Source: Fuerstiella sp.
GTDB taxonomy: Bacteria; Planctomycetota; Planctomycetia; Planctomycetales; Planctomycetaceae
DNA: 64,000 nucleotides
Direction: 5' to 3'
Assembly (NCBI GenBank): GCA_022447225.1
Contig: JAKVAZ010000006.1
Span: 186,001-250,000, forward strand
The notes under the pieces were generated by a model. The model ran no database searches. It was given only the letters and a program-made list of their open reading frames with translations, and had not been told where the DNA came from. Position 1 is the first letter of the stretch, and every line of letters starts with the position of its first letter. Both the position numbers and the translations under genes were made by a program. Shown here piece by piece: positions 3,167 through 62,826 of this stretch.

Positions 3167-3787
3167 ATGTGGCCGGAAGGCACCCAAACACTCAATCTTC
3201 TTACAAAAATCCGTGACGGAAACCAGCAGGCAGTTGATGACCTGATTGATCGTCATCGTGAGGCCGTCAAACGCCTTGTTGATATGAGAATGGATCGGGC
3301 GATTGCTCAACGTGTCGATGCAAGTGATGTCGTTCAGGATGTTCTGTTCGAAGCAAGCAGACGTATGAAAGATTATCTGGACAATCCGGTCGTCCCGTTT
3401 CACCTCTGGTTAAGACAACTGGCCCGGGATCGAATCGTCGACATGCATCGTCGGCATCGAGCTGCAAAAAAACGCAGCGTGGATCGAGAACAGCCGATCG
3501 CCTCAGTCAGCAGTGATGAAAAATCGGTCAATGATCTGGCTCAGCTTTTACGAGATGCGGAACTCACTCCGGCGGCTGCTTCAGTACGTAAAGAAATCGA
3601 ACAGCACTTCGTTGCAGCAATCAATCAGCTTGATGATGCCGACCGCGAAATCATCATGATGCGACACTTCGAACACCTCTCCAGCGCGGAAACGGCTGAG
3701 GCTCTGGATGTGACACCTGCAGCCGCCGGCATGCGCCATCTGCGTGCACTGCAGCGTCTTCGTAACATTCTTGGAAATGTCGACTGA
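3167..3787 (+). CDS. ECF RNA polymerase sigma factor
   Basis: A 206-residue sigma factor with region 2 (QRVDASDVVQDVLFEA and the following WLRQLARDRIVDMHRRH) and region 4 (LDDADREIIMMRHFEHLS then a helix-turn-helix). It resembles the divergent sigma gene closely enough to be a paralogue: both share the core-binding helix, an LHRRH/MHRRH block and the RHFE-LS motif. I chose ATG 3167 because GGGAG lies 6 bases upstream; an in-frame GTG at 3149 would add six residues. No anti-sigma factor or kinase follows. The next region is a decayed gene on the other strand, so this sigma gene appears to be monocistronic. Confidence 0.94.
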   Translation: MWPEGTQTLNLLTKIRDGNQQAVDDLIDRHREAVKRLVDMRMDRAIAQRVDASDVVQDVLFEASRRMKDYLDNPVVPFHLWLRQLARDRIVDMHRRHRAAKKRSVDREQPIASVSSDEKSVNDLAQLLRDAELTPAAASVRKEIEQHFVAAINQLDDADREIIMMRHFEHLSSAETAEALDVTPAAAGMRHLRALQRLRNILGNVD

Positions 3788-3980
3788 AGCTGCAGGTGGA
3801 ACAGCCCCCGCGCATCAGTCAATCATCGTCAGGGCTGAGGCGTGAACTGACATCAGGGTTGGATTCACTGAATTCTTCTTGCATCCGGATAAGACTCTCA
3901 CCAGCGTCAAGAACGCAGACTGAGTTTTCCGCCCCAAAGATCCAGTGCATTGGCGACCATTCTGTCTCTGGTTCACCCAA

Positions 3981-4416
3981 TTAAGAATCGCTAAAGGCTC
4001 CAGCAGAAATTTCAAGCAGTGTCGCCACACGGGCAGGTGTATAAACGGACCGATCCAGGGTCACTCCCGCTTCAGCAAGGGATGTCAACATGTGGGGTAA
4101 TGAAGAGCTGAAGAACTCCGGTCAGAATCCCGCTACACGTGGATGCCTTCATTGTTCGGCTGCAGAATCGAATCTTGCTCATCCCCCGAGAGTTAACGTA
4201 TTCGCCAGTATCCACAAGATAGTCAACCATACCTGAACCGGGGATCAGTGCATCATTCCTGAACTCAATTTCCGTTACCCAGCCACGAAACGCATGTTCA
4301 ACGTAATACAGTCGGAGCTTCTGCTGAATGTACCGCGACAAAAGAGCATACGCCACGAACGCCAGGTCTTCATCAGAAATGCCCCACATCATCACACAGC
4401 GGTGATAGAACAGCGT
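3981..4416 (-). pseudogene. Decayed unknown gene, frameshifted
   Basis: Between 3788 and 4628 no intact gene is visible, but protein-like sequence survives on the minus strand. One frame (about 4416 to 4080) reads a helical stretch with ALLSRYIQQKLRLYYVEHAF and later MVDYLVDTGEYVNSRGMSKI. That frame stops at 4072. A second frame continues with LAEAGVTLDRSVYTPARVAT and ends at a TAA at 3981-3983. The two pieces join near 4080-4110, consistent with an indel plus at least one nonsense change. I do not recognise the family. The flanks 3788-3980 and 4417-4628 show nothing further. An alternative is a short intact gene of 107 residues at 4072-4395, but the in-phase continuation argues for decay. 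Confidence 0.4.
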
Positions 4417-4628
4417 GCGTCATATTTTCTATCTGAATTTCCCCGACGGAACCGATCCCGGCAACTGTGCCAGAATGCGTTTCCGGTCACCGGCCGGCAG
4501 TACAAAACCAGGCAATCATGAACACGACTACAGACACAACCTGGATCGAAACAACAGTGATTGTCGGAATACATTTTCAATGACTCATGGAAATTCATTC
4601 GAACGGTCGACCAGGTGTTCTCGGGCGG

Positions 4629-6257
4629 CTAAGACACCTCGTCGGACTCGAAAATCTGATGCTTGGAGGGTTCTCGTTTGTAAATGACAGTTTGAGCATC
4701 TTCAAAAACTTTTACCCAGTGTTCGCTCTTTCTCAGCGCGTCGATCAGCAGCTCATGTCGTGACTTATCCGTGACTGCCAGGTTCACTCCGTAAATCTCA
4801 GTGAGACATCGCCAGTCCTCGGAGCCGGCGGCCAGTCTCTGATAGTGAGTCCAAACCTGCTCGGGAATCACGTGCACATGCAGATTCACCATGGGACGGA
4901 AACCTTTCGGACCGAATCGCTGCAAAAAACCGGACCACTCAGCGGAACAAAACACCAAACCCTCAGGAAGTGACCGCTGTGAATTCAGAAACTCAGCGGC
5001 CGAAACGGGCGTCTGTGATGAAACAGCCCGATCGATGCTCACACGGCGACCATGAACAACCTGCACACCAAGAGTGGTCATTGCAAAAAATATCCAGCAC
5101 AGGCCAATATTCGCCAACCCCCACAATCCGGTCCGTTGAGTCATCTCCGTGGTTCGCCCGATGCTCCGAAACCGTCTCCATGCAGCCGCACCGTGGCCGG
5201 CAAGAGTCAGCCCCATCACCGGTGCCAGCCAGTTGATCATCCGCGATGACCACAGCGTCATTCCGGCGGTAAACACAAGCAGTATTGACTCATCCAGCCG
5301 CAGTCGACGCGGACTCCACCGCAGCACAACGATCAACAGCAATCCCAGCGCTGCGGCCATCCGGCCCTGATGCATTCGGAGCGTCAGTGGACTCCATTCG
5401 AACATCGATTCAATATTGGGATGTCGGCCAACCCGCAATACCTCCGTAAATATCAACAGACCATTCGGATTCACCAAAGCAGCCGCGGCACACAGCTGAG
5501 TCAGCAACAGTAGTCGCACAAATCGTTGATTTGAAATACCCGCACCAATGCTTTTTGTTCTTACCCCGATAGTGATCGCATGAGCCAGTCCCGCCAGAGC
5601 CATGGTCATCAGCCCGATGGCAAACGAGCCGTGAGAGTTAGCCCAGATCCCGAACATCACAGGCAGCAATACCCAGACGGCCCGGCGCCAGCGACGTACG
5701 GTCAACAGCCACGTAACCAGCATTGAGTAACATAAAAAACCCACCAGCTGTGGCCGAATAACTAACAACTGCTGCCAGTTCAGCGCCATACATGAAAAGA
5801 GCGCCACAAAACCAAACACAACAGACCCGGATCGACTTACTCCGCCCGTAGCCACAATTCCCAGGGGAAGAACCACCAGCAGACCGTAGGCAAACTGGAG
5901 TCCGGCAAACCCGTAAGCTGAGAACAGCGTAAACAGCCCTAACTGGGAGAGCCACGCGGACGTCACCACAGGGACACCTTCAGCCAGCGCAAGCAATGGC
6001 TCAGTATAAGGAATCCTGCCGTGAGCCATCATCCAGCTCCCGTAATTCACATGATCCCACAGATCGGTAGGCCACAACGGTCGGCTGGAGAATATGGTGA
6101 TCATTAAAGTGCCGAGCGTCAGAACAAACAAAACAGAACCGCCTGACATACGGATCCAGTCCGGCGTTTTGTCTTCAAGGACACGCGAGTCCGGAAGATC
6201 TTTGACTGCGCTCAGATCTGACACGTTATCTGTGGTTTCTTCCTCTTTGCTGACCAT
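4629..6257 (-). CDS. Polytopic membrane protein, GT-C-like
   Basis: A 542-residue integral membrane protein. A charged cytoplasmic tail of about 37 residues precedes roughly ten hydrophobic segments (about 40-410) and a soluble C-terminal domain of about 120 residues. The first loop after helix 1 has an acidic W-x2-D-x2-DH motif (WPTDLWDH) followed by GSWMMAHGRIPYTEP. This resembles the acidic first loop of GT-C-fold, lipid-linked sugar-using glycosyltransferases. That fold is my inference; substrate and reaction are unknown. The C-terminal domain resembles those seen after such membrane parts in planctomycete proteins. Start ATG 6257 has AGGAG 6 bases upstream. No neighbour suggests a pathway. 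Confidence 0.75.
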   Translation of the reverse strand: MVSKEEETTDNVSDLSAVKDLPDSRVLEDKTPDWIRMSGGSVLFVLTLGTLMITIFSSRPLWPTDLWDHVNYGSWMMAHGRIPYTEPLLALAEGVPVVTSAWLSQLGLFTLFSAYGFAGLQFAYGLLVVLPLGIVATGGVSRSGSVVFGFVALFSCMALNWQQLLVIRPQLVGFLCYSMLVTWLLTVRRWRRAVWVLLPVMFGIWANSHGSFAIGLMTMALAGLAHAITIGVRTKSIGAGISNQRFVRLLLLTQLCAAAALVNPNGLLIFTEVLRVGRHPNIESMFEWSPLTLRMHQGRMAAALGLLLIVVLRWSPRRLRLDESILLVFTAGMTLWSSRMINWLAPVMGLTLAGHGAAAWRRFRSIGRTTEMTQRTGLWGLANIGLCWIFFAMTTLGVQVVHGRRVSIDRAVSSQTPVSAAEFLNSQRSLPEGLVFCSAEWSGFLQRFGPKGFRPMVNLHVHVIPEQVWTHYQRLAAGSEDWRCLTEIYGVNLAVTDKSRHELLIDALRKSEHWVKVFEDAQTVIYKREPSKHQIFESDEVS

Positions 6258-6798
6258 TGGAGTCTCCTGGCTTCACGGAAAGTGAAGTCACGCGGCGGCC
6301 GGAGAACACAGTCAATACCTACATGGACTCCAGGTCACCTTCTCCTGCAACTCCACGTGAATCACAGCTGCCGAAAATCAGCATTACTGGATCGTTTGCA
6401 TCATAGAAAAGATAGGAGTTATGACATTTCGACATCGGCCAAAATGTTCGAACTGACTGTTGACACTGATTCCCGTTTATACGTTTTTCCATATCTCGCA
6501 GGAAATCAGCTCACTCGACTGTGTTTTTCGAGAATCGTTAACGAGGCGCGGAAGCCGCTCAGGCTCCCCAACATCGGCAGGGGACGGCCCATATGGCTGT
6601 GTTCGGCAGCTTCCGCCGACGTGCCGCTCACACAGTATCAAGAGCCGGAGCCTACGGTCTCCGGCGGTATATTCCCCTGGGGAAATCCCAGCACATTCAG
6701 TATTCTTGCAAACGAAGATTTGTTCGCATCCTCGAAGAGTTTCATTCGAAAGTATGTGAGTTCCCCGCACGTCGTTAAGGGGTCACGGAGTATGAATC
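6258..6798. other. Intergenic region without a supported gene
   Basis: 541 bases between divergent genes. Open frames exist on both strands (up to 178 codons on plus, reaching 6818), but none has a recognisable domain. Their composition is Ser/Arg/Pro-rich, as expected of chance frames. The right end carries GGAG at 6787-6790, the ribosome binding site for the gene starting at 6799. Promoters for both neighbours presumably lie here; none stands out. Confidence 0.5.
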
Positions 6799-56798: not shown

Positions 56799-58475
56799 TC
56801 AGGAACCGGAACTCCGCGCGAGACGTTTGCCAAGAATACGCAATGCCTGTGCTACATCCGGGTCACTTCGCATTTCCCGACTGACTTCCTCGCGGCGCCG
56901 GCCGCGGTACAGCGTCTCGTGGGGACGAACACTGACATCCGGCTCGAGTCCCACACCGGAATAATTTTCATTATCCGGTGAATAAAATTTCGCGGTCGTC
57001 AGTTTCAGACCGGTTCCCCTGGCCATGTGAATAATACTCTGAACCGACCATTTCCCGTAGGTTGTACGTCCCACAATTGCACCACGTTCATGGTCAGCAA
57101 TTGCTCCTGCTACGATTTCACTGGCACTGGCGCTGTCTTCGTCCACCAGCAATACCAGTGGATAGTTCCGTGTATTCCATGTTCTGGCCTGAAAAGTCTG
57201 ATTCTGATCCAAAGAGCGTCCTCTGGTCGTAACCAGCACACCGTCTCTGATAAAGCGATCCAGAACTTTTGCGGCTGTATCAAGCAATCCACCCGGGTTC
57301 CCACGCAGATCCCAGATAAGTGCATTCATACCGTCCTGCTCCAGACGAGTAAGAGCATCATCCAGTTCCTCCGGTGTCGAACTCTGAAAACCATTTTGCC
57401 TGATGTATCCAATGCCGCGACGTTCATCCAGCATCACGGTACGCGTAATGCTCCGTACGTGTACGGCCCGTCGGCGAAAGTCGTTTTCATGCGACCGTCC
57501 CGACGGGTCTAAAAAACCCAGTCTCACACGCGATCCACTAACCCCCCGAAGGAGTTGCGCCGCCTCATCCGTTGAATAATCACGGCAGTCTCTACCGTCA
57601 ATCATCACGATATGGTCACCTGGTTTCAGGCCCCCTTCTTCAGCCGGACTGTCCATCAGGACTCGAACAAGCTTCATTCCCCGGCCGGACTGGGCCACCA
57701 TTTCAATACCGATTCCGACGAATTCCCCCTGGATGTTACCGGTAAGGTCACTGTAACGGTCCGGTGTCAGCAGATGACTGTATTCGTCCAGCGTGTTACA
57801 ACCTCCAAAGATGTATTCCATAACCACTGCTGATCCGTGCAGTCCCAGCTGCTGATACGCCAGATCACTGACGTCAGCAACAACAGTTCGAGCTTCCACG
57901 CGACTACCAACAGGCCGATTCCAATAGTCCCGAATCAAAATCCCTTTAACGCGGTCGATATCATCCGGACGGGCTGACCCCAGATGCTCGGCCACAAACC
58001 GATGGTTGCCAAGCGCCATGTACAGGCTCTCTGTTCCGTGAGAAATAAACCGCGTCGCGGAAATTGGCGTGAAGTACTCCAGCTGGACTCTTGTGAGGAC
58101 TTCATCCAGCATGTTCAGTGCTTCACTGCGACGCAGTGACAGCAGCTTCCTTTCGAAGCTGGTATCGGTATAGCGCCGATCAATTGCGAAGTGAACCCGG
58201 CTACGTCGCAGTGCGTAAATCAGATCTCTGACAGCGGGTGTCTGTTCCTTGGCAGATTTTTTATTGTCCATCCAGCGGTCGAGAGCAGCTTCATACACCC
58301 GGATCGCTTCGCCGTAGCGGTTGTCATCCTCATGTCGCTCACCGACATCATACGCCTCACCCGGAGTCGCCAGCTCCGAAATATCAAGTAAGTCTTCTGC
58401 ACTGAAAACCGCCGGTGCACTGAGTCCGGAAACCCAGAGTAAGCCAAATATCAGTCCGGTGAGTACCTGTCGCAT
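56799..58475 (-). CDS. S41-family C-terminal processing protease with PDZ domain
   Basis: A 558-residue secreted protease of the CtpA/Prc type. A signal peptide (1-26) precedes a helical region (about 30-230), a PDZ domain (about 250-330) and the S41 domain. The catalytic Ser is residue 450 in the SASASEI motif and Lys is residue 475 in TYGKWSVQ, 25 apart as in Prc. It should trim or degrade exported proteins in the periplasm. The long helical N-terminal part is unlike the shorter standard CtpA and may be a regulatory or partner-binding segment. ATG 58475; transcribed leftward alone. Confidence 0.94.
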   Translation of the reverse strand: MRQVLTGLIFGLLWVSGLSAPAVFSAEDLLDISELATPGEAYDVGERHEDDNRYGEAIRVYEAALDRWMDNKKSAKEQTPAVRDLIYALRRSRVHFAIDRRYTDTSFERKLLSLRRSEALNMLDEVLTRVQLEYFTPISATRFISHGTESLYMALGNHRFVAEHLGSARPDDIDRVKGILIRDYWNRPVGSRVEARTVVADVSDLAYQQLGLHGSAVVMEYIFGGCNTLDEYSHLLTPDRYSDLTGNIQGEFVGIGIEMVAQSGRGMKLVRVLMDSPAEEGGLKPGDHIVMIDGRDCRDYSTDEAAQLLRGVSGSRVRLGFLDPSGRSHENDFRRRAVHVRSITRTVMLDERRGIGYIRQNGFQSSTPEELDDALTRLEQDGMNALIWDLRGNPGGLLDTAAKVLDRFIRDGVLVTTRGRSLDQNQTFQARTWNTRNYPLVLLVDEDSASASEIVAGAIADHERGAIVGRTTYGKWSVQSIIHMARGTGLKLTTAKFYSPDNENYSGVGLEPDVSVRPHETLYRGRRREEVSREMRSDPDVAQALRILGKRLARSSGS

Positions 58476-59449
58476 AATCCGTCGTCCCCCCCATTCACCC
58501 CGCCCGCGACTGCAAACGGTTTGAATTTGTTCCGACAGATCAGTATCCAGGTCGCTGCATCCTGCAAATGTTTATCCTCCGTGACGGACACAAACGTCGG
58601 AACGCCCTCTGATTTTATCTGCGTTCAAGAAAGTTTCACCTGCGTTCACAACAGAGCAGCAGGCAGATTGTGATCGGGCCACAGTTGAATCCTGTCAATA
58701 GACGACATCTCAACCAACCACGAATCACACATGATCCCGGATGCGGTGAATCGCATGGTTTCAAACCATACCAACCCCCAAGCAAAAACCCGGAACACAG
58801 TTTGACTATATGACCGGATTTGGGACTGGTCAAATTGATGTTGGCAACAGAGTCAGCTCAGGCATGTGGGATTGCGTAACTCTTATTAATTAACTGACGT
58901 CAGTGATTGTTCCGAAAGTTCCCTGATAGATGAAACCTGTCGCCCCACGGGAGTAATGGTCCGGTTGTACGGACATAACGGAAATAGTGTACGCCAGCCT
59001 CCCTGATACTGTTGCTCCTGCTCACTAACGCCCGATGACGAACGGTTCCATTCCTGTAATATTCGCAAAGCGAAGCCACGTGTCCTGATTGTCTCCTGAT
59101 CAAAACAGCACGCCCACAGTCGCTATGACAGTTTGACAGTCGTTACTACACGCACAGACTGTGTTTCCGGTACAGGTCAGAACCGGTACTGCCCCTTCCA
59201 TCGAACCGTTGGCATGATTCCGGATTCAACCAAATACTCGATTTTCGTTGCTGGCACGGTTAAAATGAGATTGACGCTCAGAGGTGATGAGATGCTTCTT
59301 GACTCGGGTTCCTGCACGTTCTGCGAATATCAGAAGTAATTAACGTTGCTGTGTCTGATTCGCGTCAGCACAATTCGCTTGGGACGCGTCATAACCGGAC
59401 AACGCGAACAGAGTAATGCACTCTAAAAGAGTGGGCCGAGGCAAGGCTG
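58476..59449. other. Long intergenic region, nothing definite
   Basis: About 970 bases between divergent protease genes. Several 60-75-codon frames on both strands have no recognisable domain. A small palindrome ATGGTTT-C-AAACCAT lies near 58755. The right end has GGCAAGG just before the ATG at 59450. Confidence 0.5.
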
Positions 59450-61483
59450 ATGATGCGGACGATAATGAATCTGTCGCTGATGACCGCAGTTCTGTTGATG
59501 CTGCCACAGGTCCAGGCAGACCGAAAAACACTGGAAGCTCGCCAGAAACAGCTCAGTGCAACTCTCGAAAACGTCAGTTCCGCCGTGGTAGCTGTGACCG
59601 ACAGGCAGGGATTCGGCACGGGCGTCGTAGTGACTGGTGACGGCATTGTTCTCACCGCTTCTCACGTCGTGGAGAGCCACACAATTGGGCAACGACGTCG
59701 GGACCGAAAACTGGAGGTTATTTTTCCCGACGGTCTTGTTGCACGTTGTAAACAACTTGGACGCAACCGTTATTGCGATGCGGCCGTTCTGAAAATTGTC
59801 AGCAAACCGCCCGATGGTGAAGAGTTTCCTCATGTCCCAATGGGCCGTTCTTCGGATGTAAAACGGGGAGAGTGGTGCTTCGCCATGGGACATCCAGGCG
59901 GTCGCAGAAAAGATCGCCCTGCCGTTGTGCGTTTTGGCCGGGCGCTCTCCGTGAGCGATCAGACGATCGTATCCGACAATGCCATCGTGCTGGGTGATTC
60001 CGGTGGTCCGCTGTTTGACCTTGAAGGCCGTGTGATTGGCATTCACAGTATGATTACCCGAATTATTGTCGAAAACAGACATGTTGCGATCGATGTCTGG
60101 CACCGTGACTGGGACCGCCTGCTGAAAGGCGAATCCTGGGGGCAACTTCGTGTCAGTGACAACGAACTTGCCGCAAGTGAATTCGTGGGCATCGGACTGC
60201 ACTGGAAAGACTATCAGGCCCAGGTGACACGTATCATAACTAACAGCCCGGCTGCCAAAGCCGGATTTCGCCCGGGTGATAAACTGCTGAAAGTCAACGG
60301 CCGAACATTCGCAGACCGACTGGGACTCACTTCCCTGCTTGCACGCCTGACTGAGAACCAGAAGGTAACGGTAACCGTGCAGCGCGACGGTACGGAAGAA
60401 ACGCTGAACGTGGTTACGGGCCTTCGCCCAAAGCCACATTCGAACTCCGGTGAATTGACTCAGGAGGAACAGGAATTTGCACTCGAGTTCCAGCGACAAA
60501 TTGGATTTAACCGACGAGTTGGACAGAACGAAAAACGTACTGAGTCTGCGATGCGCGACTATGCTGCGTTGTCAAAAACAACTGCGGGAAGCGTTGTAAG
60601 ATTTAAAGCAAATGGGAAGCAGATCGCTTTTGGAATCGTCATGAGTGATGATGGTGATGTGATTACGAAAGCCAGTGAAATTTCACGAGCAACCAACCCG
60701 GTGTGCATGCTGCCTGATGATTCACCGCGTGAATTCAAGAAAATTGGGTCGAACACAACATGGGATTTGATGCTGGTGAATGTCGATGCTGACAATCTGA
60801 AACCTCTGGAATGGAGTCATGATCGTCCCTCAACCGGTTGGATGTTAATCAGTCCGGACAGTAGTGGTCGTCCGCTGTTGCCGGGCGTGGTCAGTATTCC
60901 GCCTCTCAAATTACCAACTTCGTCACAGGGATTTCTGGGCGTCCGCCTGGATAGACGGACTCGGAATTCCGGTGTCAGGGTGGACCGACTGCTGGAAGGC
61001 GGTGCTGCCGGACGTGACGGAATCCGGGCCGGCGACGTCATGTTGTCAATCAATGGAAAACCACTTAAAGGTGTCAACGACACGGTGGAACGGATCAAAG
61101 GCTTTCCTCCAAACCGCCAGATTGAAATTCGTGTTCTTCGGGGAGATACCATTCAAACTGTTTCAGTGACACTGACACCGCGTTTTGTGAGTGATCAGCA
61201 GGATGTACTACTGGACCATTACTCCGACCCGAAGTCCGCAGGTAAGTTTGCAAGCATTCATAACTCCGGTTTTCCGGAGGTCATCCAGCACGACACCGAT
61301 CTGTTTCCTCATCAGTGCGGCGGACCGGTGCTCAACATCCAGGGCAAAGCCGTCGGGATGAACATTGCCCGGGCAGCCAGAATTATCAGTTATGCCATCC
61401 CGGCCGATGTTGTCCAGGACGTGTATGAGTCACTTCGGGCCGACACACTGGCTTCACACCAGGCACGGCAAGGCGGGCCTTAA
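59450..61483 (+). CDS. Double HtrA-like protein: active trypsin-type protease plus degenerate second unit
   Basis: A 677-residue exported protein. A signal peptide (about 1-23) precedes an HtrA-type protease with full triad His72 (TASHVV), Asp110 (RYCDAAV) and Ser184 (GDSGGP), then PDZ1 (about 245-325). A second protease-like unit (about 380-660) is degenerate. His is Ser409 (VITKASEI), Asp439 is kept (TTWDLML), and the nucleophile is Cys623 (HQCGGP). A second PDZ (about 495-575) lies inside this unit, between its two barrel halves. Envelope protein quality control is likely. A leader with two overlapping ATGs (59450 and 59453) fits; GGCAAGG lies upstream. Its stop shares four bases with the convergent Tat gene. 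Confidence 0.9.
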   Translation: MMRTIMNLSLMTAVLLMLPQVQADRKTLEARQKQLSATLENVSSAVVAVTDRQGFGTGVVVTGDGIVLTASHVVESHTIGQRRRDRKLEVIFPDGLVARCKQLGRNRYCDAAVLKIVSKPPDGEEFPHVPMGRSSDVKRGEWCFAMGHPGGRRKDRPAVVRFGRALSVSDQTIVSDNAIVLGDSGGPLFDLEGRVIGIHSMITRIIVENRHVAIDVWHRDWDRLLKGESWGQLRVSDNELAASEFVGIGLHWKDYQAQVTRIITNSPAAKAGFRPGDKLLKVNGRTFADRLGLTSLLARLTENQKVTVTVQRDGTEETLNVVTGLRPKPHSNSGELTQEEQEFALEFQRQIGFNRRVGQNEKRTESAMRDYAALSKTTAGSVVRFKANGKQIAFGIVMSDDGDVITKASEISRATNPVCMLPDDSPREFKKIGSNTTWDLMLVNVDADNLKPLEWSHDRPSTGWMLISPDSSGRPLLPGVVSIPPLKLPTSSQGFLGVRLDRRTRNSGVRVDRLLEGGAAGRDGIRAGDVMLSINGKPLKGVNDTVERIKGFPPNRQIEIRVLRGDTIQTVSVTLTPRFVSDQQDVLLDHYSDPKSAGKFASIHNSGFPEVIQHDTDLFPHQCGGPVLNIQGKAVGMNIARAARIISYAIPADVVQDVYESLRADTLASHQARQGGP

Positions 61484-62826
61484 CTCTGCCAAAACGTGGA
61501 CTGCTGCGAACCTGTGTATTCAACGTTCAGATGCGGCGTTGGCACAGGAACTTCTCCGGCGATCAGACTGTCCAAACCTCCGATGACCATTCCCGAAGTC
61601 AGAAGAGTTCGCTCAATCGGATACGGTGTCCTGCCTTCAATGATCGTGGTTTCAGCATGGCGGGCCAGCGGGTTAAAGAAATCGGCGGTCGTTGAACCGT
61701 GGCCGGGCATCGGCAGATACATTTGACATGACACAATCGACCCGTCTTCCAGCATGCCTGCGTAGTTGAAATCCCGAATGTCCGTCAGCAGCATAGTGGT
61801 TCGCAAACCGTCATTGTGTTCAACGATGTAACCAAGACTTTCCGGACGGGCACCGCCGTCCTCCCGGGGAAGCTTCAACATCTTTTGCAGCCACTCGATT
61901 GACGTAGCATCAGTCGGAAAGCCGGTCTCCACCGGAAGATTGTGACTGCGCGTAAGAGCTGACACGATCAGTTGTCGCGTGGTTCTGCAGTCATCTTCCC
62001 ACAGCCGCTTCCACAAATTATCTCCGCGCAGAGCATGAATCTGTCGCACACCCGTTTCACCGCCGGCCCTGCGTTCAGACATGCACTGAGCCGTTTCCAA
62101 TGCGTGAATGTCGTAGCTGTCGACGCCTCCATAGGCCACACAGACGCTCTCTTTCACTGCGGCACCATAGGGCATATCGATGCATGGCATTCTTCGGGTA
62201 ACCGGCAAAGACGACCCGGCCAGAAAAGGGAAATTCAAACGCCGTGAATCCTCAACCATTTCCACACATTCGTCCCAGTCGGTCGAAAGATGTTTGTCAT
62301 TGAAGACAGGTACGCTGCGACCACTATCTTCAAAGACGTCAACTACTTTTTTGAACCACTCGTACCTCGGATACCGCGTCTGACCTTTTTCAGTCCGGGG
62401 ATACGATCCGTGCTCACCGATAATGATCACACCATCGACCGCCAGTTTCTCGCCACCTAATGTGAGGGCCTCTTCGATTGTGGGTACCTGATTCAACCCG
62501 TGCTTCCTGATGCGACCGCGCGCCAGATCGTTCTCCGGAAACTGATCAATATAAACCGATACAACATCCACTCGGGGCCGTTGCCAGCCGCCATTCCAGG
62601 TGTAACCGACGGTGTGCCGATCCAGAAAATGCTGTGCATGAGAATGCCGGTAAACAACCGTCCCCAGGAAGGCAACCTTTGGACGGCGGCCCAGGACAGT
62701 CTCAGCTGCCGGAACGGAACGAATCAGCGGGCCGCCTGCGCTGATTGCGCCGGTTCCCAGGAATGTTCCTGCTCCCAGAGATTTCAGAAATTGGCGGCGG
62801 TTCGATCGGTTACTCGGTTCAGTCAT
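61480..62826 (-). CDS. Tat-exported protein of unknown family
   Basis: A 448-residue protein with a twin-arginine leader (NRRQFLKSLGAG), so it is exported folded and may carry a cofactor. The mature part has no domain I can name, but it contains several ordered motifs (VAFLGTVVYRHSHAQHF, VIIIGEHGSYPRTEKGQ and HALRGDNLWKRL) and many conserved-looking His and Trp residues. Planctomycete genomes carry many Tat proteins of unknown function, so I do not assign a role. ATG 62826. It runs convergently into the HtrA-like gene, and the palindrome TTAA serves as stop on both strands. Confidence 0.85.
   Translation of the reverse strand: MTEPSNRSNRRQFLKSLGAGTFLGTGAISAGGPLIRSVPAAETVLGRRPKVAFLGTVVYRHSHAQHFLDRHTVGYTWNGGWQRPRVDVVSVYIDQFPENDLARGRIRKHGLNQVPTIEEALTLGGEKLAVDGVIIIGEHGSYPRTEKGQTRYPRYEWFKKVVDVFEDSGRSVPVFNDKHLSTDWDECVEMVEDSRRLNFPFLAGSSLPVTRRMPCIDMPYGAAVKESVCVAYGGVDSYDIHALETAQCMSERRAGGETGVRQIHALRGDNLWKRLWEDDCRTTRQLIVSALTRSHNLPVETGFPTDATSIEWLQKMLKLPREDGGARPESLGYIVEHNDGLRTTMLLTDIRDFNYAGMLEDGSIVSCQMYLPMPGHGSTTADFFNPLARHAETTIIEGRTPYPIERTLLTSGMVIGGLDSLIAGEVPVPTPHLNVEYTGSQQSTFWQS

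Follow-up and report, generated by a model that had tools for sequence, protein, structure and literature searches.

A planctomycete gene that probably pairs an HtrA protease with a degenerate HtrA-fold unit carrying a PDZ domain in its L3-equivalent loop

The window analysed here is a stretch of 64,000 nucleotides from a Fuerstiella genome, and on its plus strand lies a gene (59450..61483; 677 amino acids plus stop) whose product joins two HtrA-like units, which we refer to as unit 1, followed by PDZ1, and unit 2, associated with PDZ2. Fused orthologues were recovered at loci L014, L016 and L015, the first of which encodes a protein 83% identical to the window protein and comes from a genome of the same GTDB genus as the window genome; G071 holds the same place. 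The window genome has a single gene of this fused kind, its remaining HtrA-like matches being ordinary or partial. Residues 1-23 (59450..59518, plus strand) form a likely Sec signal peptide, judged by eye from the hydrophobic stretch LSLMTAVLLML followed by VQA/D, and a linker of about residues 326-364 (60425..60541, plus strand), which the full-length model places with low confidence, leads from PDZ1 into unit 2. The fused frame ends 14 residues past the C-terminal helix region of unit 2.

The fused gene is adjoined by a minus-strand gene (56799-58475) for an S41 C-terminal processing protease with a PDZ domain (Pfam Peptidase_S41, 2.1e-47; TIGR00225 reached at 251 bits). Two relatives, L015 and L133, carry in that place an extra HtrA-like gene (780 and 814 aa, respectively) that stands divergently beside the fused gene on the opposite strand. 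On the other side a minus-strand gene (61480-62826) encodes a protein of 448 aa that begins with a twin-arginine-like stretch and matches no Pfam family above the cut-off; the stop of this gene overlaps that of the fused gene by 4 bases, tail to tail. Antisense to unit 1 runs a 358-aa open frame on the minus strand (59423-60499) with a TTG start, which is probably a by-product of codon composition. Beyond the two units themselves no neighbours are conserved among 377 open reading frames near 74 loci, the largest shared group comprising 5 loci, some members of which belong to the same genus or are the same place fetched twice.

Relatives were gathered through a related-locus search, a search of the family (101 genomes) and a search of the phylum (392 genomes), and their DNA was fetched. 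The unit 1 protease domain occupies residues 42-225 (59573..60124, plus strand), as delimited by Pfam Trypsin_2 and by comparison of the full-length model with HtrA proteases. This model, built from 8 alignment rows (pLDDT 73.7, pTM 0.65), aligns over unit 1 and PDZ1 with HtrA proteins at Z 22.8-24.4 among the rows shown. The catalytic residues H72 (59663..59665), D110 (59777..59779) and S184 (59999..60001), all on the plus strand, are those named in the initial annotation, and the comparison with relatives bears them out: the H/D/S triad is complete in 83 of 87 unit 1 relatives, and the oxyanion glycine two residues before the serine position is present in 85 of the 87 rows. PDZ1 follows at residues 245-325 (60182..60424, plus strand; Pfam PDZ_2 at 247-321). 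Unit 1 thereby shows both features of the HtrA/Deg (S1C) proteases, a triad within a trypsin-like fold and a PDZ domain C-terminal to the protease, and shares domain order, triad and fold with DegS, DegP, DegQ and HtrA1/2; its score against the NCBIfam model of the Do family, TIGR02037, is 206 bits, below the curated cut-off of 416.2 bits. In some large relatives (L108, L115, L116 and L117) unit 1 is degenerate as well. Three large and divergent proteins of 804-837 aa (L108, L111 and L115) contain two unit 1-like stretches followed by one unit 2, and in L108 and L115 the first of these stretches also lacks the triad; a three-barrel, possibly wholly dead version of the fused protein may therefore exist.

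The second half of the protein, searched alone, matches Pfam Trypsin_2 (E 4.2e-8) in two stretches with a PDZ match (6.9e-11) between them. According to the model, the fold alignment and the profile alignment, the first part of unit 2 spans residues 365-488 (60542..60913, plus strand); it contains the N-terminal barrel together with the opening strands of the C-terminal one, as far as the GVVS strand and the onset of L3. PDZ2 covers about residues 492-577 (60923..61180, plus strand), and the last part, residues 608-663 (61271..61438, plus strand), supplies the remainder of the C-terminal barrel and the C-terminal helix. An AlphaFold2 model of unit 2 computed from six rows (the window and L014-L018) reached a mean pLDDT of 74.3 and a pTM of 0.58, with low confidence after PDZ2 (model residues 225-256). 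In the 50 rows shown, alignments of this model with HtrA protease domains have Z 20.2-22.6, cover 163-183 residues (rmsd 2.4-3.7) and span model residues from about 10 to 313, so that the second barrel fold first proposed for residues 380-660 is present and, as the match extends to both sides of PDZ2, the trypsin fold is completed around the inserted domain. Foldseek also returned high-confidence HtrA matches for the unit 2 model; their TM-scores are low (0.25-0.32 of the query), which an interrupted fold and a model with loosely placed domains would lead one to expect.

The insertion point was located by aligning a profile built from 32 sequences of unit 2 with solved chains. In the best match, the DegP-like chain 22kg, profile positions 26-129 correspond to chain positions 94-200 and profile positions 239-295 to chain positions 202-263, and the PDZ part of the profile (128-213) corresponds to the chain's own C-terminal PDZ domain at 266-363; this order of flanks and PDZ recurs in the other two printed profile alignments. 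PDZ2 thus lies within the C-terminal barrel, after the GVVS strand and before the IQHD segment, equivalent to a point between 22kg positions 200 and 202 and 16-17 residues ahead of position 217, where that chain has its nucleophile. In published studies, loop L3 is placed at residues 298-307 (also 298-310) of HtrA1, with the nucleophile at Ser328 (PMC5666011), and at 241-251 of Deg5, with Ser266 (PMC3640471). Given these positions, the spacing to the nucleophile puts PDZ2 within L3, and we conclude from the alignments that PDZ2 is an insertion in the stretch corresponding to the HtrA sensor loop. The initial annotation had recognised that a PDZ domain is inserted in unit 2, which holds; its placement between the two barrel halves does not, as both the fold alignment and the profile alignment position PDZ2 inside the C-terminal barrel. 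The domain looks intact, with its carboxylate-binding stretch GFLGV kept. One relative, L113 (family f27; minus strand, 3736-6756; 1007 aa), has two tandem PDZ domains in the unit 2 insert, at 703-783 and about 814-885, after which the QHD...GSPV part resumes.

The catalytic positions of unit 2 were compared across 101 distinct rows, which are what remains of 124 matches after removal of identical cores and, having been drawn from loci chosen by score, under-represent remote relatives. At the position of the catalytic histidine the window protein has S409 (60674..60676, plus strand), and the relatives have Ser in 97 rows, Asn in 2, Thr in 2 and His in none, which disposes of a sequencing error as the source of the Ser-for-His replacement. 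Two residues earlier stands K407 (60668..60670, plus strand), a lysine in all 101 rows. The catalytic aspartate position is retained as D439 (60764..60766, plus strand), again in 101 of 101. C623 (61316..61318, plus strand) occupies the position of the catalytic serine, where the 101 rows have Cys in 82, Val in 6, Met in 6, Ile in 3 and Thr, Leu, Ala and Phe in 1 each, and the oxyanion glycine two residues before it is present in 3 rows. The three residue assignments S409, D439 and C623 are those proposed at the outset (aspartate kept, Ser for His and Cys for Ser). The 20 loci from Verrucomicrobiota agree at the His position (Ser 19, Thr 1) and at the lysine (20 of 20), and have Met in 12, Cys in 3, Leu in 2, Ala in 2 and Ile in 1 at the nucleophile position. 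Compared with the HtrA/Deg (S1C) family, unit 2 has the trypsin-like fold and lacks both the triad and a C-terminal PDZ domain. On these grounds unit 2, devoid of the catalytic His and Ser and of the oxyanion hole, is not a decayed copy and is predicted to be a conserved pseudoprotease.

Among the 101 unit 2 rows, a unit 1 is fused in 43 and lies immediately upstream on the same strand in 44, where the two open frames overlap by up to 396 bases or are set apart by up to 99, measured from stop codon to stop codon. The remaining 14 had no unit 1 in the DNA first fetched; 3 of these lie at contig ends, and two of the three genomes (G099 and G039) carry unit 1 on another contig. For the 11 stand-alone loci no adjacent unit 1 appeared in further flanking DNA, and 10 of their genomes encode a unit 1 elsewhere, scoring 219-256 bits compared with at most 118 bits for other HtrA-like proteins. 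In three of them (G004, G070 and G048), which are single-contig chromosomes, the two units lie megabases apart. The sole exception among the 11 is G017 (91% complete), with a unit 2 and no recognisable unit 1.

Counted by genome, both units occur in 51 of the 101 genomes of the family, unit 2 alone in 5, unit 1 alone in 0 and neither in 45, where paired genes served to build the models for the two units and the thresholds were chosen once a gap in the scores had been seen. The five genomes with unit 2 alone are G016 (88% complete, at a contig edge), G017, G023 and G034 (divergent forms only) and G091 (66% complete). Across the 392 Planctomycetota genomes, with the same thresholds and the best 6 and 8 candidates per genome scored, 68 have both units, 3 have unit 2 alone (G431, G455 and G459), 5 have unit 1 alone, all at 134-138 bits and thus at the threshold, and 316 have neither; Fisher tests of co-occurrence on such counts ignore the relatedness of the genomes, and their p-values overstate independence. 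In Verrucomicrobiota unit 2 was found in 16 of 194 genomes, and at the 20 loci fetched, out of 28 matches, unit 1 is adjacent in 18 and fused in 2 (one locus of this set, L150, is the place of L018 again).

A quick tree of 142 rows places 78 unit 2 rows on one side of a branch with SH-aLRT 100 and 56 unit 1 rows on one side of another with SH-aLRT 98. The tree includes 8 other HtrA-like proteins from the same genome, leaves out, as close copies, 23 of the unit 2 rows and some of those for unit 1, together with the 4 loci with degenerate unit 1, and has values below 80 at 74 of its 139 inner branches; its topology suggests a single origin for each of the two units. The fused and unfused states interchange at least 7 times on the unit 2 tree. 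Split unit 2 genes have signal-peptide-like starts of their own (12 printed, judged by eye), which would bring the two proteins together outside the cytoplasm. This genomic distribution gives good support to the view that the two units are nearly always retained jointly, whether fused, adjacent or unlinked, and such retention suggests a dedicated protease-and-regulator pair. We consider it probable that the product of the window gene is an envelope HtrA protease (unit 1 with PDZ1) fused to a dedicated pseudoprotease partner (unit 2). The outline of the first interpretation, an active protease joined to a non-canonical sensor unit, is consistent with the triad of unit 1 and with a second unit that is conserved, degenerate and co-retained; the word sensor goes further, and would draw on the position of PDZ2 in L3.

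L3 itself differs between the two units. In unit 1 the loop is short compared with HtrA/Deg proteases: from the strand glycine to the catalytic serine there are 21 residues in 69 of 84 rows (range 20-29), and the same span measures 25-35 residues in the window genome's 8 other HtrA-like proteins. At the position of DegS Gln191, glutamine stands in 80 of 101 rows for unit 2 versus 26 of 87 for unit 1. Three studies describe activation of HtrA proteases through L3 and LD' (PMC11642142, PMC5666011, PMC5003398); in HtrA1, residue R302 lies in L3 and the R302A variant is inactive (PMC5666011), and in active HtrA structures L3 sits between protease and PDZ domain and touches LD* of the neighbouring subunit (PMC5003398). 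The L3 arginine is kept in 80 of the 101 unit 2 rows, and unit 2 of the window and of its close relatives has leucine instead.

We propose that units 1 and 2 would assemble as a mixed trimer or pseudo-oligomer in which PDZ2 could bind a signal, either a peptide or a misfolded protein, and unit 2 would use its PDZ-bearing L3 to set the LD, L1 and L2 activation loops of a neighbouring unit 1. In the periplasm, the likely role would be regulated quality control or cleavage in response to a signal. In its general form, an active HtrA protease on which a dedicated pseudoprotease acts as regulator through its PDZ/L3 module, we favour this reading and think it somewhat probable. The specific mechanism, L3 of unit 2 acting in trans on unit 1, is a more doubtful matter that we put forward tentatively. 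A short L3 in unit 1 would follow naturally if the sensor loop had passed to the dead partner. The leucine of the window protein implies that an arginine contact made in trans by L3 is not to be taken literally in this genus, where the contact must be made another way or the L3 idea is wrong.

An alternative proposal is that unit 2 serves as a chaperone or adaptor, capturing misfolded or C-terminally tagged proteins for unit 1 and exerting no allosteric control. HtrA proteins are known as protease-chaperones, according to passages in PMC3640471, and a dead barrel bearing an intact-looking PDZ2 would suit such a task; the partnership and co-retention data fit it equally well. We regard it as rather unlikely, since it leaves unexplained both the position of PDZ2 in L3 and the short L3 of unit 1.

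The residues around the former nucleophile could point to a different kind of sensor. H614 of the QHD motif (61289..61291, plus strand), at the position of Thr192 in DegS, is His in 90 of 101 rows, and H614, D615 and C623 are kept together in most rows, so that unit 2 might sense a metal or another ligand through this cluster and not through L3 allostery. A precedent is MamO of magnetotactic bacteria, which is described (PMC4794232) as a metal-binding pseudo-HtrA that promotes MamE-dependent proteolysis. On the unit 2 tree, however, the Cys was changed or lost at least 12 times and the His changed at least 6 times, and the metal site of MamO is a surface di-His site elsewhere on the fold. We judge a MamO-like metal or ligand sensor improbable.

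The same cluster bears on whether C623, possibly with H614 or K407, has been recruited into a cysteine or rebuilt protease, and on the earlier suggestion that C623 might be reactive. C623 and H614 occur together in 78 rows (Fisher p 6e-4), and K407 and D439 are invariant. A disulfide of C623 with C419 was considered and set aside, C419 being present in 57 of 101 rows and only weakly associated with C623 (p 0.02). Once relatedness was handled by an independent-pairs test, the association between H614 and C623 lost its support (median p 0.5). Set against the chymotrypsin-fold cysteine proteases, unit 2 here has the Cys but, over the 101 rows, no His at the base position and almost no oxyanion glycine, which makes a cysteine protease unlikely; the Cys is moreover replaced in 19 of 101 rows and by Met, Leu, Ala or Ile in 17 of the 20 Verrucomicrobiota rows. 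Through the independent-pairs result, the repeated changes of the Cys and the absence of the glycine from 98 of 101 rows, we reject a cysteine protease or Cys-His dyad; a reactive nucleophile at C623 is not supported, and we hold any catalytic role for unit 2 to be very improbable. That unit 2 is a functionless decaying HtrA duplicate, as its vanished active site might invite one to think, is refuted by conservation (the same replacements in 101 distinct relatives from two phyla within a single clade), by the split genes with separate signal peptides judged by eye and by the tight co-retention, and has in our estimate next to no probability.

Regulation of unit 1 by a dedicated pseudoprotease, the reading we favour, has a counterpart in the MamE/MamO pair, in which, as reported in PMC4794232, an active HtrA protease and a degenerate HtrA-fold partner are likewise kept together, MamO acts on proteolysis non-catalytically, and MamO has, like unit 2, a residue other than glycine at position 193. 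The anatomy differs: MamO retains His and Asp with Thr in place of Ser, whereas unit 2 has lost the His, and MamO carries a C-terminal transporter domain together with its di-His site, whereas unit 2 carries a PDZ domain in L3. No Pfam match to a transporter domain such as that of MamO was obtained in the window protein. By analogy, the planctomycete pair would resemble MamE/MamO in kind and differ from it in anatomy. From DegS, DegP, DegQ and HtrA1/2, with which it shares the fold, unit 2 departs in that HtrA proteins have the PDZ domain at the C-terminal end, as stated in passages of PMC3640471, whereas here it lies inside L3 and the triad is gone. The consulted passages of a survey describing planctomycetes as rich in PDZ proteins (PMC6411480) contain no PDZ-in-protease architecture of the unit 2 kind, and in the open-licence literature searched we found no description of this architecture or of the pair.

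A pair of active and degenerate HtrA proteins was thus already known from MamE/MamO, and the present one is a second such pair, occurring through Planctomycetota and in part of Verrucomicrobiota. A key issue in the study of HtrA proteases is how ligand binding by the PDZ domain is relayed to the active site via L3, and here a PDZ domain has apparently moved into the L3 of a non-catalytic partner and the L3 of the catalytic one been shortened, which would make it possible to study sensing and catalysis apart from each other in the split pairs. Sensing and cutting may perhaps be divided between homologous subunits, an HtrA regulatory design that would be undescribed; in a similarly tentative vein, the active subunit could have given up its sensor loop to a dead subunit that carries the loop with a grafted PDZ domain, and it is conceivable, if on the doubtful side, that ligand binding by the dead subunit feeds straight into the loop by which its neighbour is switched on. 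The pair provides a testable function for two hypothetical-looking proteins of many planctomycete genomes, and a short unit 1-type L3 could mark HtrA proteases that work with external sensor subunits.
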